Positions 2,031-54,069 of a stretch of 64,000 bases of DNA are shown one piece after another. The position numbers were made by a program, and so were the translations under genes. Positions within the stretch are counted from its first letter, which is position 1; each line of letters opens with the position of its first letter. The notes under the pieces are model-generated. The model saw nothing but the letters and a program-made list of their open reading frames with translations. It had not been told where the DNA came from and ran no database searches. Source of the stretch: Spirochaeta lutea (GTDB lineage: Bacteria > Spirochaetota > Spirochaetia > DSM-27196 > Salinispiraceae); contig NZ_JNUP01000065.1 of NCBI RefSeq assembly GCF_000758165.1, forward strand, positions 23,359 through 87,358, written 5' to 3'.

Positions 2031-4022
2031 ATGAATACCAAGGCCCTGGACGCCGTCGCATTATCCATACGAAGTCTGAGTATGGACGCCATCGAAGCCG
2101 CCAAGAGCGGCCATCCCGGATTACCCATGGGTATGGCAGAATTCGGGGCTCTCCTATTCGGGGAGATTCTAACCCACAACCCCCAGGACCCTGCCTGGAT
2201 GAACCGTGACCGCTTTGTGCTTTCCGCAGGCCATGGTTCCATGTTTCTATACAGCCTGCTGCATCTCAGCGGGTACGATCTTCCTCTCTCGGAAGTCAAA
2301 CGCTTCCGCCAGGTCGGGAGCCTTACCCCGGGACATCCGGAGTTTGGACACACCGCTGGGGTAGAAACCACCACGGGTCCCCTGGGGCAGGGCTTGGCAA
2401 ACGCCGTCGGGTTTGCCCTGGGAGAACGCCATTTGGCCGCCCGACTTAATACCCCGGAGTTCCCGGTGATCGACCACTATACCTACGTGCTTGCCGGAGA
2501 CGGCTGTATGATGGAGGGACTCACCAGTGAGGCAGCCAGCTTTGCGGGCCATCAGGGTCTGGGAAAACTGATTGTCTTCTACGATTCCAACCGGATCTCC
2601 ATCGAAGGATCCACCGACCTGGCATTTACCGAGGATGTAGCAGGTCGTTACCGGGCCTTCGGATGGCAGGTTCTTGAGGTCAGTGCTTACGATTACCAGG
2701 GAATGAGGGATGCTGTTCATCAGGCGAAAAGCCAGGATAGCCAGCCCTCGCTCATTATTTTAACCAGCACCATTGGTAAGGGTGCGCCAACCAAGGCGGG
2801 GACAGCCGGCATTCACGGTGCCCCCCTGGGCGCTGAGGAACTCTCCGCGACGAAGAAGGCCCTGGGCATCCCTGAAGATCACCCCTTTTTCATTCATCCC
2901 GAGGCTCTGGCCTATTTTAAGGAAAAGGCTTCCGGCTGGGCCCAAGCTCAAAATGCCTGGAATGCCCAACTAGCTGCTTGGAAGAAGGCCCATCCGGAGA
3001 ACGCTGCCCTGCTGGAGCAGTTAGGCAAGCGGGGACCGGAACTCTTGGACCAGGTAGAGTGGCCGGCCTATAAGCCCGGGGATACCGGGGCAACCCGATC
3101 CACCAGTGGAAAAGCCCTGAACGCCCTGGCCAAGGTGTACCCCGGAATCATCGGAGGCAGCGCCGATTTAGCTCCCTCAAACAATACGAACCTCCAGGGC
3201 TTCCCGGATATGGACGGCAGCAACCCCGGCGGCCGGAACCTGCATTTCGGGGTCAGGGAACACGCCATGGGGGCCATCAGCAATGGACTGGCACTGTACG
3301 GAAATCTACGCCCCTTCTGCGCCACATTTCTGGTATTTACCGACTATATGCGGCCGGCAATGCGTTTGGCGGCCCTTATGAAACTCCCGGTCATCTACAT
3401 TATGACCCATGACTCCATATTTGTCGGAGAAGACGGCCCCACCCACCAGCCCGTGGAACATCTGGCTGTAGCCCGGGCCATTCCAAACATGGTGGTGCTG
3501 CGGCCCGGGGATGGAGATGAAAGTAATCTGGCTTGGATTATGGCCATGGAACGGACCAATGGACCGGTAGTGCTGAGCTTGACCCGGCAGAATCTGCCCG
3601 TATATGAAAAACCGGCAGGTTGGGAACAGGATGCCCTCCGGGGTGCCTACATCCTGTACCGGGGAAGCGACAATCCGGATATCTGCCTGGTAGCCACCGG
3701 TTCGGAGGTGCATATTGCCCTGGATGCTGCGAAGCGCTATGAATCAGCCAATCCCGGGAAGACCGTCCGGGTGGTCTCCATGATCAGCCGTGAACTCTTT
3801 TTATCCCAGGATAAGACCTGGCGTCGGGCCACCGTTCCCCCGAAAAGCAGGGTAATGGTGGTGGAAATCGCCAGTTCCCTGGGCTGGGAGGGGTTTGTTC
3901 AGGATCGGGCAGACCTATTTACCCTGGACAGCTTCGGCATCAGCGGACCGGGCAGCGAGGTCGCGGAGCATTTCGGTCTGGATGTTCATAGCCTGGTCCG
4001 ACGGATGGAAGATCTTTCCTAG
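2031..4022 (+). CDS. tkt: Transketolase
   Basis: Thiamine-diphosphate enzyme of the non-oxidative pentose phosphate pathway, transferring two-carbon ketol units between sugar phosphates. At 663 residues it has the usual bacterial length. Visible features are SGHPGLPMG near residue 25, the cofactor motif beginning GDGCMMEGLTSEA and ending in a conserved Asn near YDSN (about 150-185), and THDSIFVGEDGPTHQP in the pyrimidine domain (about 460). An upstream in-frame extension to 1941 is possible, but the ATG at 2031 is preceded by GGGAGGAAC and begins at the family's normal N-terminus, so I choose it. It converges with the phosphatase gene, stop to stop, with a 5-nt gap. Confidence 0.95.
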   Translation: MNTKALDAVALSIRSLSMDAIEAAKSGHPGLPMGMAEFGALLFGEILTHNPQDPAWMNRDRFVLSAGHGSMFLYSLLHLSGYDLPLSEVKRFRQVGSLTPGHPEFGHTAGVETTTGPLGQGLANAVGFALGERHLAARLNTPEFPVIDHYTYVLAGDGCMMEGLTSEAASFAGHQGLGKLIVFYDSNRISIEGSTDLAFTEDVAGRYRAFGWQVLEVSAYDYQGMRDAVHQAKSQDSQPSLIILTSTIGKGAPTKAGTAGIHGAPLGAEELSATKKALGIPEDHPFFIHPEALAYFKEKASGWAQAQNAWNAQLAAWKKAHPENAALLEQLGKRGPELLDQVEWPAYKPGDTGATRSTSGKALNALAKVYPGIIGGSADLAPSNNTNLQGFPDMDGSNPGGRNLHFGVREHAMGAISNGLALYGNLRPFCATFLVFTDYMRPAMRLAALMKLPVIYIMTHDSIFVGEDGPTHQPVEHLAVARAIPNMVVLRPGDGDESNLAWIMAMERTNGPVVLSLTRQNLPVYEKPAGWEQDALRGAYILYRGSDNPDICLVATGSEVHIALDAAKRYESANPGKTVRVVSMISRELFLSQDKTWRRATVPPKSRVMVVEIASSLGWEGFVQDRADLFTLDSFGISGPGSEVAEHFGLDVHSLVRRMEDLS

Positions 4023-48136: not shown

Positions 48137-49744
48137 ATGACATCCATAACAAATCTGATCCTTTGCGGCGGGGTGGGGAGCCGGCTTTGGCCCCTGAGCC
48201 GAAAGTTGCTGCCTAAGCAGTTCGCCCGTATCTTAGAGGGCCAAACCCTGTTCGAGCGTACCGCCCAGCGGAACGCCCGGTTTAGCCGCCGAGTTCTCAT
48301 CGCTGCCAACGAACACCAGAGTTTTCTCGCCTACAATCAATTACATAACCTCGGAATCCGGCCGGCCGGAGGCCTTATCGAGCCTATCGGCAGGAATACC
48401 GCCCCGGCCATCGCCCTGGCCGCCATGCAGTGCGATCCCGGGGAGATTATTCTGGTAAGCCCTTCGGACCATGTTATTGCCGATGAACAGGCCTACGCCG
48501 GGGCTGTGGCTGAGGCGGCGGATCTGGCGGCCCAGGGGTACATCGTGACCTTCGGCATCCGTCCTGAGTATGCTGAAACCGGCTTCGGCTACATCCAGGC
48601 GGGTCCGGTTATTGTACCCGAGGACCGGCCCGATGCACGTATAGCGGAGGGCGGTGAATCACCGGACACCGCCGGCGCGAGGGCCGTGCCCGGCGAGGAA
48701 ACCCAGGGGGGTGATGAGCCCCGGTCTTCGGGAAGCAGGGGTGCCGGGCTGCAGGGCCAGGAGCCGGGAGATCCCGGGAGCAACGGAACGGTTCAGGGCC
48801 GACGGGTTGCGGCATTTAAGGAAAAGCCCGATCTGCCCACCGCGGAGGGCTACCTCCGGGACGGTAACTTTTTTTGGAACAGCGGGATGTTTTGTTTTCA
48901 GGCCGGGGTATTCCTGAAGGAGCTGGAAACCTATCAGCCCGAGATGTACCGGGCCTGCCGCCGGGCCCTGGAAGGCGCCGGGAAAGCCTCCCTGGAGACC
49001 AGGGGATCCGGGGAGGCCGCCCTGACCCCGAGGCTGGAGGATATGCAGGCTATTCCGGCGTTGTCGGTGGATTATGCGGTCATGGAGCAGACCCGCCGGG
49101 CAGCGGTGGTCCCCTGTTCCATCGGGTGGAGCGATCTGGGCAGCTTGGATGCCTTGTTTGATTTTCTGGGTGATGAGGCCCGGCAGCGGAATCCCGAGGC
49201 TGAAAATGTCTGGAACAGCGATCTGCCTCCGGTAGCCGTGGAATCCCGGGGTAACCTCGTTATTGCCGGAGAGCGCCAGGTCGCTCTTATCGATGTGGAG
49301 GATTTGTACGTCATTGAGACCCCCGATGCCCTGTTGGTCGGCCGCCGGGGTTCCAGTCAAAAGGTAAAGGCGGTGGTACAGCATCTTGAAGAGACTGCGC
49401 CGCGCTTTACCGAGCGGTTTCCCACGGTGGAGCGCCCCTGGGGACGGTACACCACCCTTCACCAAGGGGAGGGGTACATGGTCCGGCGGATCCAGATAAA
49501 ACCCGGGGGAAAAACAAGTCTGCAGCGTCACCGCCGCCGGGAGGAACTCTGGACGGTCGCCTCGGGTCAGGCCCGGGTCCGCATTGAGCTGTCGGTTCGC
49601 ACCTACCAGAAGGGCCAGAGCATCGAGGTGCCCCGGGGGGCGTGGCATCAGCTGGAGAATAGCGGCACCGAGCCCCTAATCATTATTGAAACTCAGATCG
49701 GTAATGCTATCTCCGAGGATGATGTAGAACGCCGGGAGGGGTAG
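48137..49744 (+). CDS. manC: Mannose-1-phosphate guanylyltransferase with isomerase-like cupin domain
   Basis: A 535-residue bifunctional-type enzyme. The nucleotidyltransferase has LCGGVGSRLWPLSRKLLPKQF-like signature at residues 7-27, SPSDHVI and GYIQAG. The C-terminal cupin domain (VERPWGRYTTLHQGEGYMV, then GGKTSLQRHRRREELWTV) is typical of type-II mannose-6-phosphate isomerase. It makes GDP-mannose, possibly for mannosylglucosylglycerate as well as glycans. About 60 Gly/Glu/Ser residues (nt 48620-48800) are inserted between GYIQAG and the conserved FKEKPD block. No ribosome binding site; -10 box is 6 nt upstream. Confidence 0.93.
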   Translation: MTSITNLILCGGVGSRLWPLSRKLLPKQFARILEGQTLFERTAQRNARFSRRVLIAANEHQSFLAYNQLHNLGIRPAGGLIEPIGRNTAPAIALAAMQCDPGEIILVSPSDHVIADEQAYAGAVAEAADLAAQGYIVTFGIRPEYAETGFGYIQAGPVIVPEDRPDARIAEGGESPDTAGARAVPGEETQGGDEPRSSGSRGAGLQGQEPGDPGSNGTVQGRRVAAFKEKPDLPTAEGYLRDGNFFWNSGMFCFQAGVFLKELETYQPEMYRACRRALEGAGKASLETRGSGEAALTPRLEDMQAIPALSVDYAVMEQTRRAAVVPCSIGWSDLGSLDALFDFLGDEARQRNPEAENVWNSDLPPVAVESRGNLVIAGERQVALIDVEDLYVIETPDALLVGRRGSSQKVKAVVQHLEETAPRFTERFPTVERPWGRYTTLHQGEGYMVRRIQIKPGGKTSLQRHRRREELWTVASGQARVRIELSVRTYQKGQSIEVPRGAWHQLENSGTEPLIIIETQIGNAISEDDVERREG

Positions 49745-49772
49745 CCTTCGGGTACTGCTGGCCCATGCATCT
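49743..49772. repeat. Partial intergenic copy of the 42-bp element
   Basis: TAGCCTTCGGGTACTGCTGG and the following CCCATGCATC closely match the core of the 42-bp unit repeated in the RND gene at 52239 and 53473. Confidence 0.55.
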
Positions 49773-49773
49773 G

Positions 49774-51717
49774 TTATTCCGGGGGGGTCAGGGTTTTGGC
49801 GATCATGGCTTCCAGGCTCTGGCGGCTGATGGGTTTCTGCAGGAAGTCGGTGAAGCCCTGGCTTTTTACCAGATCGTCTCCTTCTTCCTGGGTGATTCCG
49901 CTGACCGAAATAATCGGGGTGCTGCGGTGGTTGGGAAGTTCCCGGATTTTTTGCAGGACCTGAGTACCGCTCATGGCATCCAGATAGTTGTCTAAGAGGA
50001 TCAGGTCGAAGGATTTCTCCTGCAGCACGGAGAGGGCGCCGGCGGAGGTTGCCGCCTCCTGGGTGGTAATCCCCAGAGTTCTGCAGAGCCCGGACAGGAT
50101 GAACCGGGTAGTCTCGTCGTCATCAATAATCAAAATATGCGCTTTCATGGAATAGTGCTCCTCTTTGAGACCTCCCGGGGGGGTCTGGGGTGTGTTTTCC
50201 AGGGGCATGGGGCTGGAAGTTGCTGGGGTATCCGGGGGGTATAGGGGGATTCTAACGCTAAAGGTACTTCCTTGCCGGGGTGTACTGGTCAGGCTGATGG
50301 TTCCTCCCATGCTCGCCGTTAGGACTTTCACGATGGACAGGCCCAGACCCATACCTCGGTGGCTATTGCTCTGCCCCGGGGGTGGCTGAGCCGGGCTGGA
50401 AGCTGGCTGGTCGGGGGGGGGTGCGGGTTCTCCCGGGCCCTCAGGCTGCCTGGAGGTCTCTGAATCATCCTGAACATAGCGTTCGAAGATTCGGTCCTGC
50501 ATGTGGGGGGCTATTCCCCTGCCGGTGTCCTGTACCTGGATGATCATCTCCCGGGGCAGTCCGGCTGAGGGCTGAGGGGTGCTGCACCGGATTGTAACCG
50601 AGCCTCGGGGGGTGAATTTTACCGCGTTTCCTAACAGGTTAATGAGGATGTGCCGGAGGGCGGTGTCGTTGAGGGTCAGTGTCCGGGGTACCAGGGCCTG
50701 GATGTCCATAGACAGTTCCAGGCCTTTTAGACTGCATTGAGCGGTGAAGAGGGATTTTATCTCGTGGAGGAAGTCCCGGATGTCGATGTTCCGGGGCGCG
50801 GCTGTGAAGGAACCCTGCTCAATATGGACTGATTCGATGATCTGCCCTAGCTCGGCCGTGAGGGTTTGGCTGGCGTGTTTGATGGTATCCAGGTAGGTCT
50901 GCTGCTGAGCGGTGAGGGCTGTTTGGCCCAGGAGTTCCAGGGATCCGGAGATGCCTAACAGGGGGGTTCGCATCTCGTGGGTCATGGTGAGGATGCGCTG
51001 TTCTTTTTGGGTATTTGACCGGTCTAAGGCTTCAATACGATGGAGCAGCAGTTCTTCCCGACGGGCAAGGTCGTAGGCCATGACCTGGACTGCGCTGGAG
51101 AGGTCCGATAAGGGGTGCCCCTGGGGAAGGGGCGGAACCTCTACGTCGTACTCATTCTTCCAGAGGATGCGGGCCATGGCGGAGAGGATGGCGTTTAAAT
51201 CACCCTTGGTCTGGGGACGCTCAAGACAGAAGCAATCCTGGGATTCTCCGGGGGGCTGTTCATCTAGAATGGAGGTGATGGTTTCCCGGTAGTCCCGGGC
51301 AAGGCGAACCTTGGACGCGATGCCGCCCAGGTAGAGGGATAGCCGCAGAATCTGCTTAACCGGGGAACCCATCCCGAAGAAGTACACCGTGTCCAGTCGG
51401 TTTATGATCTGGCTGAGGTTTGTCATTACCTTAAGTCGGTTATGGATGGGGGGATTTTCCAGGCTGCTGTAGTCAAAGCAGGCGTAGAAGGCCTGATCGG
51501 TACTGAAGGTCTCGTCCAGGGCATGAAAGATCAGCCTTGTGATGGCTTCGGCATCCTCGGGTTTGGGACAGCCCCAGGGTTGCCAGACCATGATATTGGT
51601 ACCTACCAGGGATAGGTTGCCCTGGTAATGCTCGTCCGGGGTGCGGTAGTGCCAATGGGGAGGTGAGTACACTGGAAGCCCGCTGACCGGACAGGGCTCG
51701 GCATCCTTGAGAATCAT
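49774..51717 (-). CDS. Hybrid sensor histidine kinase
   Basis: A 647-residue cytoplasmic kinase. The N-terminal 250 residues are an unassigned sensory region (HWHYRTPDEHYQGNLSLVG). A HisKA domain carries MTHEMRTPLLGI (His about 251); the ATPase has N box LLGNAVKFTPRG and G1 QDTGRGI. Between the G1 and G2 boxes a 35-residue Pro/Ser-rich insert interrupts the ATP lid. The C-terminal receiver (residues 525-647) has IIDDDE, Asp in LILLDNYLDA and Lys in LQKP. A Met at the receiver start has GAGGAG upstream and could allow separate receiver synthesis. It starts 3 nt after the RND gene. Confidence 0.9.
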   Translation of the reverse strand: MILKDAEPCPVSGLPVYSPPHWHYRTPDEHYQGNLSLVGTNIMVWQPWGCPKPEDAEAITRLIFHALDETFSTDQAFYACFDYSSLENPPIHNRLKVMTNLSQIINRLDTVYFFGMGSPVKQILRLSLYLGGIASKVRLARDYRETITSILDEQPPGESQDCFCLERPQTKGDLNAILSAMARILWKNEYDVEVPPLPQGHPLSDLSSAVQVMAYDLARREELLLHRIEALDRSNTQKEQRILTMTHEMRTPLLGISGSLELLGQTALTAQQQTYLDTIKHASQTLTAELGQIIESVHIEQGSFTAAPRNIDIRDFLHEIKSLFTAQCSLKGLELSMDIQALVPRTLTLNDTALRHILINLLGNAVKFTPRGSVTIRCSTPQPSAGLPREMIIQVQDTGRGIAPHMQDRIFERYVQDDSETSRQPEGPGEPAPPPDQPASSPAQPPPGQSNSHRGMGLGLSIVKVLTASMGGTISLTSTPRQGSTFSVRIPLYPPDTPATSSPMPLENTPQTPPGGLKEEHYSMKAHILIIDDDETTRFILSGLCRTLGITTQEAATSAGALSVLQEKSFDLILLDNYLDAMSGTQVLQKIRELPNHRSTPIISVSGITQEEGDDLVKSQGFTDFLQKPISRQSLEAMIAKTLTPPE

Positions 51718-51720
51718 AGG

Positions 51721-54069
51721 CTATTGTAGGCCCACCTTTGGAGATTCCACAATGGAAAATATCCTGGGGAGGATGTATACGGTGACGGTTGTGGCTGCCC
51801 AAAGGGCGATGATGCCCGTAATGGCGGCCCAGGAGAGGGGTATGATGCTAGAGAACGCCAGGGGCAGCAGCAATAGGGAGAAGATCAGGGTGGTTTGCAG
51901 GATGGGGGTTACCACCCGGTGATCCGAGTCGGGGTGCTTCAAGGCGAGGACCATAAAGATAGCGTCATCGTTGCTTACACCCACCAGGAGGCTCAGGAAG
52001 GCGCAGTCGATGAGGGAGAATCCTCTGCCGGAAACCAGGGACACCAGGGTGTAGCTCAGGACCGAGACCAGGACCGAGATTCCGGGCAGGATACCACCCC
52101 TGGCACTGCGGGTTATGAGAGCCAGGAGCATAATCATAAGAGCAATCAACAGAGGGATTCCCATGAGAAAGGTCTGGATCACCGCGCTTTGGTAACGGCG
52201 TAACTCATAGAAGTACCCCGAGACGCGAACCACGGATTCCGGGGCTGGTCGTACCCTTTGGGTACTGCTCGCCCATGCGTCCGGGGCTGGTTCAGATGGG
52301 AGCATGGGTTCAAATTGCGGTGGGTGCTCAGTCTCAAGGCCGGCGGCCTGATAAGCAGCCAGGATGTCTTGGTGGAGGTTGTCCAGGGCATGGTAGGTGC
52401 CTGCTTCCTGGGTCGGGGTTAGGTAGAGGCGGAGCAGGGAGTACTGCGGGTCGGTGTAGCGCTGAAGAAGGGCCCCGGCGTCGTTAGAGGCTGCGAGTTC
52501 CAGGTTCTCTCCGGCCTCCTCCATGGACTGGGGCAGTCTGTCTTCGATTCCGCGATAGCGTCCGGTAATCCAGGCGAGCAGGGGAATGAGAGAATCACTA
52601 TGAGAGATTCCGGGATTCGCTTCCAGGGTCTTGGTCAGGGTTTCAAAGGATTGTAAAAACTGTGGCGAGAGAATGCCTCCCTCGGTTTTTGTATCCACGG
52701 TCAGCACGATCTCGCCGTTGGATAATCCGGACCGCTGATTCTCAAGGAAGTATTTGTGTACCGGAGAATTCCTGGTGAAGATGGCGTTGGTAATGATCTG
52801 CGGTTCGAGACCTAGGGCAGGGAGGTAGGCTATTATGAAGACGCCTCCGGCCATTCCGGCGTAGCAAAGGCCGCGCCGAATCCCTGAGAGCGCCGTTGCC
52901 CGGCCGGGGCGGGAGGGCTCGTATCCGTCTGTGGGCCAGGGCAGGATGGCCGGCCGTAGACCTTGTGCAGGCGAGGGAATGGTGTTCAGGATTGCCGGAA
53001 ACACCAGGGTTGTACCCAGGATGCTCAAGGCTGATGAAATGGCCATAAGAATCCCCAGGCGCTCCAACAATGTGTTACCGGATAGGATCAGGAGTAGCAT
53101 GGCTGTTCCGGTGGTGAAACCCGAGAGCAGGATGCCCAGGGTATCCAAGGATAGCGCCCTGGTGCGGAGGGTCCTCCGAACTAGGCCCCAAGCCCGGAGC
53201 CGGTGAAGTAGAAACGGGCCGGTAATTGCCAGGGAAAAGAAGGGTACGGTCGCTGTTACCGCATTGAGCTCCAGATTCATGAGCTGCATGATCCCCAGGG
53301 TCCAGGCTGCGGGCATTACCAGGGCTGCACCCAAGGCTGCAAGGATGCGTTTTCGCCGGGTTACCAGCAATCCCCCCAGAACAGCCAGGGGCAGAGCGAG
53401 AAGCATCTTCGTGAGAATATCCTGTTTGAGCTCCGATTCGATGCTATGGGTGTAGTGGTAAAGACTTGTAACCCGGGGCTGGTCGTAACCTTCGGTTACT
53501 GCTCGCCCATGCGTCCGGGGCTGGTCGTAACCTTCGGGTACTGCTCGCCCATGCAGCCGGGGCTGGTTTTCTTGGTACGGTTCCGGTGGGAAGAGGCTTA
53601 GCAGGTCCTGTCCCTGCTCGGGGCTCAGGTTCATGACACTCCGGAGGTACACCGATTCGCCGTCGATAGATGCAGGGTTTCCCGGTGTACCCTCGGATTC
53701 CTTCCCGGCAAATAGCAGCCGGAGGAAGGGGCTGTCCAGGGTTCTTGGGGTAAGTTCTCCAGCAGCCGAATCCCATACCGGAACCTCCGCCAAGGTGTCG
53801 CCCTGGAGTATGATGTCGGTGAATTCCAGGGGGTCAAGGATGAGAGCCTGGGGGTCCAGAGCCAGGATGGATTTCCGGATACTGGGGGCAGCCTCCTGAA
53901 CGGCAGCTTTGGGGATTCTGAAGGAGACAATTGTGGTGTTTTCTTCCGGATTTTCCTGTTCCTCTGTTAACAACTCTGTGCCGACCCGTAACAGCGGAAT
54001 ACGGAATGCTGCAAAGACCGAGAAGGCCAGGGCGATGGTAATAATTACGAGTTGTCCGGATCTTGTCAT
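51721..54069 (-). CDS. RND-superfamily (MMPL-type) exporter
   Basis: A 782-residue transporter with about twelve membrane helices in two groups (SAFAAFR-type first helix, then 230-440 and 600-780), and large extracytoplasmic loops. The Asp/Ser/Thr-rich transmembrane motif SLLVGVSNDDAIFMVLAL is characteristic of MMPL/RND proteins. Two loops contain a repeated 42-bp element translated in different frames (QPRTHGRAVTEGYD versus APDAWASSTQR). The ATG at 54069 begins at the first helix, 9 nt from TATGAT; the frame upstream to 54189 is not used. Kinase gene follows at once, suggesting the transporter is sensed or regulated by it. Confidence 0.88.
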   Translation of the reverse strand: MTRSGQLVIITIALAFSVFAAFRIPLLRVGTELLTEEQENPEENTTIVSFRIPKAAVQEAAPSIRKSILALDPQALILDPLEFTDIILQGDTLAEVPVWDSAAGELTPRTLDSPFLRLLFAGKESEGTPGNPASIDGESVYLRSVMNLSPEQGQDLLSLFPPEPYQENQPRLHGRAVPEGYDQPRTHGRAVTEGYDQPRVTSLYHYTHSIESELKQDILTKMLLALPLAVLGGLLVTRRKRILAALGAALVMPAAWTLGIMQLMNLELNAVTATVPFFSLAITGPFLLHRLRAWGLVRRTLRTRALSLDTLGILLSGFTTGTAMLLLILSGNTLLERLGILMAISSALSILGTTLVFPAILNTIPSPAQGLRPAILPWPTDGYEPSRPGRATALSGIRRGLCYAGMAGGVFIIAYLPALGLEPQIITNAIFTRNSPVHKYFLENQRSGLSNGEIVLTVDTKTEGGILSPQFLQSFETLTKTLEANPGISHSDSLIPLLAWITGRYRGIEDRLPQSMEEAGENLELAASNDAGALLQRYTDPQYSLLRLYLTPTQEAGTYHALDNLHQDILAAYQAAGLETEHPPQFEPMLPSEPAPDAWASSTQRVRPAPESVVRVSGYFYELRRYQSAVIQTFLMGIPLLIALMIMLLALITRSARGGILPGISVLVSVLSYTLVSLVSGRGFSLIDCAFLSLLVGVSNDDAIFMVLALKHPDSDHRVVTPILQTTLIFSLLLLPLAFSSIIPLSWAAITGIIALWAATTVTVYILPRIFSIVESPKVGLQ
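52239..52290 (-). repeat. 42-bp element inside the RND gene, copy A
   Basis: One unit plus the beginning of the next (CCGGGGCTGGTCGTACCCTT ... GCGTCCGGGGCTGG). It encodes PAPDAWASSTQRVRPAP in the RND protein. Confidence 0.85.
53473..53566 (-). repeat. 42-bp element inside the RND gene, copies B and C
   Basis: Two tandem 42-bp units (53473, 53515) and a partial third (53557). They are read in a different frame from copy A, giving QPRLHGRAVPEGYD and QPRTHGRAVTEGYD. Confidence 0.9.

Follow-up and report, generated by a model that had tools for sequence, protein, structure and literature searches.

A family of very short palindromic repeats in spirochaetes, probably mobile and inserted in frame into genes

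Repeat copies in and beside an RND-type gene

The window, a stretch of 64,000 nucleotides from Spirochaeta lutea (genome of 3.53 Mb in 69 contigs), contains a gene for an RND-type membrane protein that holds three in-frame copies, A, B and C, of a short palindromic element. A degenerate copy, D, lies at the end of a sugar nucleotidyltransferase gene. The features are as follows.

48137-49744, plus strand: mannose-1-phosphate guanylyltransferase / mannose-6-phosphate isomerase gene, with its stop codon inside copy D
49732-49775, plus strand: degenerate copy D, left arm eroded (18.7 bits)
51721-54069, minus strand: host gene of copies A, B and C, encoding an RND-type (HAE3-like) membrane protein of 782 aa
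52243-52284, plus strand: copy A, GGC-TGGTC-GTACCCTTTGGGTAC-TGCTC-GCC-CATGC-GTCCGG, followed by a second GGCTGGT
53477-53518, plus strand: copy B, first of a tandem pair, hairpin GTAACC ttc GGTTAC
53519-53560, plus strand: copy C, second of the tandem pair, hairpin GTAACC ttc GGGTAC with one broken pair

A preliminary description had placed a 42-bp element at two sites in the RND-type gene, read in two frames, and both statements are borne out. Units of CCGGGGCTGGTCGTA begin at 52239, 53473 and 53515, the tandem pair having a spacing of 42, and an extra CCGGGGCTGG closes each run of units. The core GGTACTGCTCGCCCATGC, with up to three mismatches, occurs four times in the window versus 0.10 expected from shuffles. 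The strand of the element is identical in A and in B and C, but the reading frame differs: the copy at 52239 is translated as ..APDAWASSTQRVRPAP.., containing PDAWASS, and those at 53473 and 53515 as QPR(T/L)HGRAV(T/P)EGYD, containing HGRAV. Copy D matches 24 of the 25 core bases. It had been described as a related partial copy at 49743 between genes; the relationship holds, but the copy is not purely intergenic, since its GTAG includes the TAG stop codon of the upstream gene.

When RND homologues from the same order were checked for ancient peptides, both inserted segments and their peptides were absent, which leaves the insertion reading unrefuted. It is hardly credible that the segments are an ordinary tandem repeat of local origin, or that the protein has carried them since ancient times. 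Two of the units do stand in tandem, and loops tolerate repeats, but the homologues are without the segments and the same DNA is found in other genes, orientations and frames. In a predicted model of the RND protein (mean pLDDT 61.7, 14 sequences), low-confidence coil at residues 32-204 and 580-609 houses the inserted segments, and each insert immediately precedes a strand and a long helix, one per protein half. This placement, which the preliminary description had proposed to model, is compatible with loops, though weakly so because the model confidence is low at the inserts.

Other inserts are seen nearby. The sugar nucleotidyltransferase gene encodes a Gly/Pro/Glu-rich low-complexity stretch of ~60 residues (about 48617-48803, plus strand) between GYIQAGPVI and RRVAAFKEKP, which is unrelated to the hairpin element. 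A histidine kinase gene (about 50370-50470, minus strand) has a proline-rich insert (PEGPGEPAPPPDQPASSPAQPPPGQSNSH) within the HATPase domain. These two cases suggest that low-complexity inserts are frequent in this genome.

Architecture and covariation of the repeat

On the plus strand of the window, the consensus is NNN-TGGTC-[hairpin, usually 15 nt]-TGCTC-N'N'N'-YATGC-RWCC. The whole repeat is about 40-60 bp long and consists of a three-pair outer helix, a fixed TGGTC/TGCTC internal loop, a variable inner hairpin of 5-10 pairs (rarely up to 15), and a fixed 3' tail, YATGC-RWCC. The hairpin and the outer three pairs covary almost perfectly, and the loop and tail are invariant. A scan requiring the hairpin recovered 92 distinct copies versus none in reversed sequence. 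In a set of 23 copies that differ in their hairpins, 97.1% of cells are paired and 72 are double-changed, versus a shuffle mean of 21.6 and 8-16 with slid partners; the inner-stem figures are biased towards perfection because the scan accepted only perfect pairing at the foot of that stem. The first inner-stem pair is G-C in 19 of the 23 and A-T in the other four, with GGTC before the stem and TGCTC after it.

The outer three pairs were not used in the scan, and their 177 cells comprise 172 Watson-Crick pairs, 0 G-U pairs and 5 mismatches. Such an outer helix, Watson-Crick without G-U, would favour pairing in DNA over pairing in RNA. A functional structured RNA motif, such as a protein-binding or processing hairpin under RNA-level selection and duplicated around the genome, is quite improbable. 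Strong covariation combined with an unchanging internal loop and tail is what one expects of structured RNAs, and G-U pairs would be possible in the TGGTC/TGCTC loop on the forward strand; against this, besides the outer helix, the orientation of copies relative to the host gene varies, the host genes have no common function, and an Rfam search gave no match to the element.

With regard to the terminal inverted repeats and target-site duplication typical of a MITE, the left triplet recurs immediately behind the element in 16 of 76 copies versus 0-5 at other offsets, and empty sites are ambiguous by a few bases. The triplet is a weak sign of a three-base direct repeat, which may stem from duplication or from the choice of target.

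Stems mostly differ between separate loci and are alike in tandem copies at one locus. We think it unlikely that the inner hairpin is rewritten at copying, with only the internal loop and tail copied faithfully. Some stems are common to different loci in the genomes G109 and G060, which argues for slow drift rather than rewriting. If it were true, rewriting would call for copying by a hairpin-primed or arm-templated mechanism of a kind not known for bacterial repeats.

Distribution and candidate movers

A genome-wide search, as the preliminary description had proposed, extended the repeat beyond this neighbourhood. BLAST against the own genome yielded one more copy, within an ABC-2 permease gene on contig C64; relative to the coding strand, its orientation is opposite to that of the RND copies. 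A covariance model added another on C68, in an IS3-type transposase gene. Other short BLAST matches in this genome were judged to be chance. The model, built from the four own copies, matched 24 of the 41 genomes of the order (E up to 1), with 55 matches in G002; low-scoring matches on L048, L049, L074 and L075 were also judged to be chance. A stricter sequence pattern matched 11 of 296 Spirochaetota genomes, including G109 (58 copies), G002 (34) and G060 (18), and the reversed pattern, run as a control, matched twice in total. At least three single-match genomes from this pattern are without a hairpin; the single matches in G236, G230 and G182, which have none, were taken as chance. Copy number in Spirochaetota is patchy, from none to about 58, and the repeat is often missing from relatives of high-copy genomes.

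Viral contigs hold about a dozen copies that show the hairpin structure. A 14-mer scan of bacterial and archaeal contigs returned at least 118 loci, the query being too unspecific; among the matches listed, four contigs have the hairpin structure, of which L133, L140 and L189 are titled as spirochaetes and L115 as Bacillota. L115 carries tandem element units at 3284-3395 and is the only non-spirochaete title with the structure among the matches listed; it may be a misbinned contig. BLAST searches of plasmids and phages gave nothing relevant, and a search of the open-access literature for the element sequence gave no relevant paper.

Size, palindromy, tandem arrays and intragenic copies are all REP-like, and the left flank pairs with an internal triplet in the outer helix. 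These features would suit a REP moved by a Y1 (RAYT / IS200-IS605-type) transposase, as thought for GTAG repeats. Such an origin is nevertheless unlikely, as the repeat has no GTAG tag and Y1_Tnp is absent from G000 as well as from G002 and G060 with their many copies. The Y1 transposase is present in other genomes of the phylum (G109, G193 and G118), and as a shared mover it is unsupported.

Elements that carry many copies are another candidate. Copies lie inside group II introns of L063, L140 and L216, in every examined copy of one G002 intron, and within IS3 and IS66 genes, as would be expected if group II introns or IS elements moved the hairpin. This is quite unlikely in view of the many copies outside such elements and of those in transposase and maturase genes, which look inserted into them. 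Moreover, G109, despite its 58 copies, and G193 are without the group II maturase domain, which leaves the maturase unsupported as a shared mover.

The genome G002 offers several further observations. A 2.15-kb group II intron holding the hairpin element is present in about ten near-identical copies (L226, L227, L230, L237, L239, L241 and L242), and the intron copies examined lie directly after terminator-like hairpins. At L232:9950-10250, a tRNA gene is adjoined at its 5' end by a tandem array of the element, one unit of which apparently holds an insertion of another, longer palindrome. At L238:2900-4300, close to tRNA genes, a tandem repeat unit of roughly 230 bp holds five copies as well as terminator-like hairpins.

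In-frame insertion and relation to known palindromic repeats

Beyond the RND-type and permease genes, the repeat lies in frame in genes for a group II maturase, IS3 and IS66 proteins, an AAA-ATPase and a Toprim protein. Inserts in genes are 42, 45 or 51 bp long, and the fixed core is free of stop codons in all six frames. Both orientations and four of the six element frames are used among the host genes, and the added peptides vary with strand and frame. Each of the eight genomic insertions into genes (seven from the hairpin-length count plus L070) has a hairpin whose length is a multiple of three, versus 26 of 62 other distinct hairpins; the same is true of a ninth, in a Toprim gene on the viral contig L359.

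Empty sites were found in homologues. In homologous IS3 transposase genes of C68 and of the genome G007, each has a 42-bp insert where the other has none; a second full copy of the G007 IS3, sought in G007, G002 and G000, was not found, although a homologue was. When the flanks were joined, with the insert taken as 27 bases plus the hairpin, the conserved motifs YVRGWMNYYG (group II maturase), GFCLWQKRLE (IS66 TnpB), NQLWVADFTY (IS3) and NGGGRVEREF (AAA-type ATPase) were restored, with no stop or frameshift. Removal of the element raised the family score in four of the five families tested: from 382 to 402 bits for the group II maturase, from 92 to 107 for IS66 TnpB, from 129 to 156 for IS3, and from 36 to 42 for Toprim_2. 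The exception is the permease, with a Pfam score of 24.1 bits with the element and no match at E 0.001 without it. Because this score does not rise, the permease case rests on the length of its homologues, which are about 19 residues shorter at the insert site.

The earlier proposal that the repeat invades protein-coding genes is thus upheld by empty sites in homologues, several hosts, both orientations, several frames and a patchy distribution. We conclude that this is very probably a family of very short palindromic repeats of spirochaetes that behaves as mobile elements and is inserted in frame into genes. Its active mobility is inferred from the insertions. The repeats occur at new sites and in tandem. 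A putative enzyme acting in trans could perform the insertion, with the folded single-stranded DNA perhaps recognised through the fixed internal loop. Any copy with a length divisible by three could then sit in a gene in either orientation, adding about 14-17 residues, and would be tolerated because its core is open in six frames and its length keeps the frame. Such copies would persist, presumably in loops, and others would be lost by selection.

Rickettsia and Wolbachia provide the best-known cases of selfish palindromes inserted in frame. Described in PMC10969869 and PMC3767692, the Rickettsia palindromic elements (RPE; Ogata et al. 2000, 2002) are in-frame palindromic inserts in unrelated genes. 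They are about 100-150 bp long, and RPE-4/6/7 have an ATGAC motif (PMC3767692). The preliminary description had drawn a parallel with these elements, and it holds for behaviour: here, too, several unrelated protein-coding genes have taken up a palindrome in frame and gained peptides from it. Judged by size, sequence and architecture, however, the spirochaete repeat is not an RPE by membership. Its inserts in genes are only 42-51 bp, its sequence is unrelated and shows no ATGAC in the consensus, its stems vary around an internal loop that is fixed, and its hosts are Spirochaetota rather than Rickettsiales.

CGTC-tagged REPs, among them RPE-4 and RPE-6, have been reported in five phyla, Spirochaetes being one. 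They are short hairpins, sometimes intragenic and without an associated transposase; CGTC (or TGTC/CCTC) lies by the stem, the stem begins with A-T pairs, and the tail is CCA (PMC3733652). The spirochaete repeat is likewise a short hairpin, sometimes intragenic, with no associated transposase, and the GGTC before its inner hairpin is one off CGTC. It differs in having this GGTC before the stem and mostly G-C as the first pair, as well as an outer covarying helix, a 3'-side TGCTC and the YATGC-RWCC tail. GTAG-tagged REPs have RAYT transposases and, in some species, intragenic copies (PMC3733652). They resemble the spirochaete repeat in size, palindromy, clustering and intragenic copies, but the latter is without the GTAG tag, and no Y1 transposase was found in the genome of the window or in G002.

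Gene invasion by small palindromes is not new, since RPE behave alike and intragenic GTAG and CGTC REPs are known from many bacteria (PMC3733652); the sequence and structure of this repeat are its own. As a second, unrelated family in another phylum, it would mean that small repeats are a recurrent source of new peptide segments. Its sharply defined structure and its several clean empty sites would also make it tractable for finding the movers of palindromes that lack a transposase of their own.
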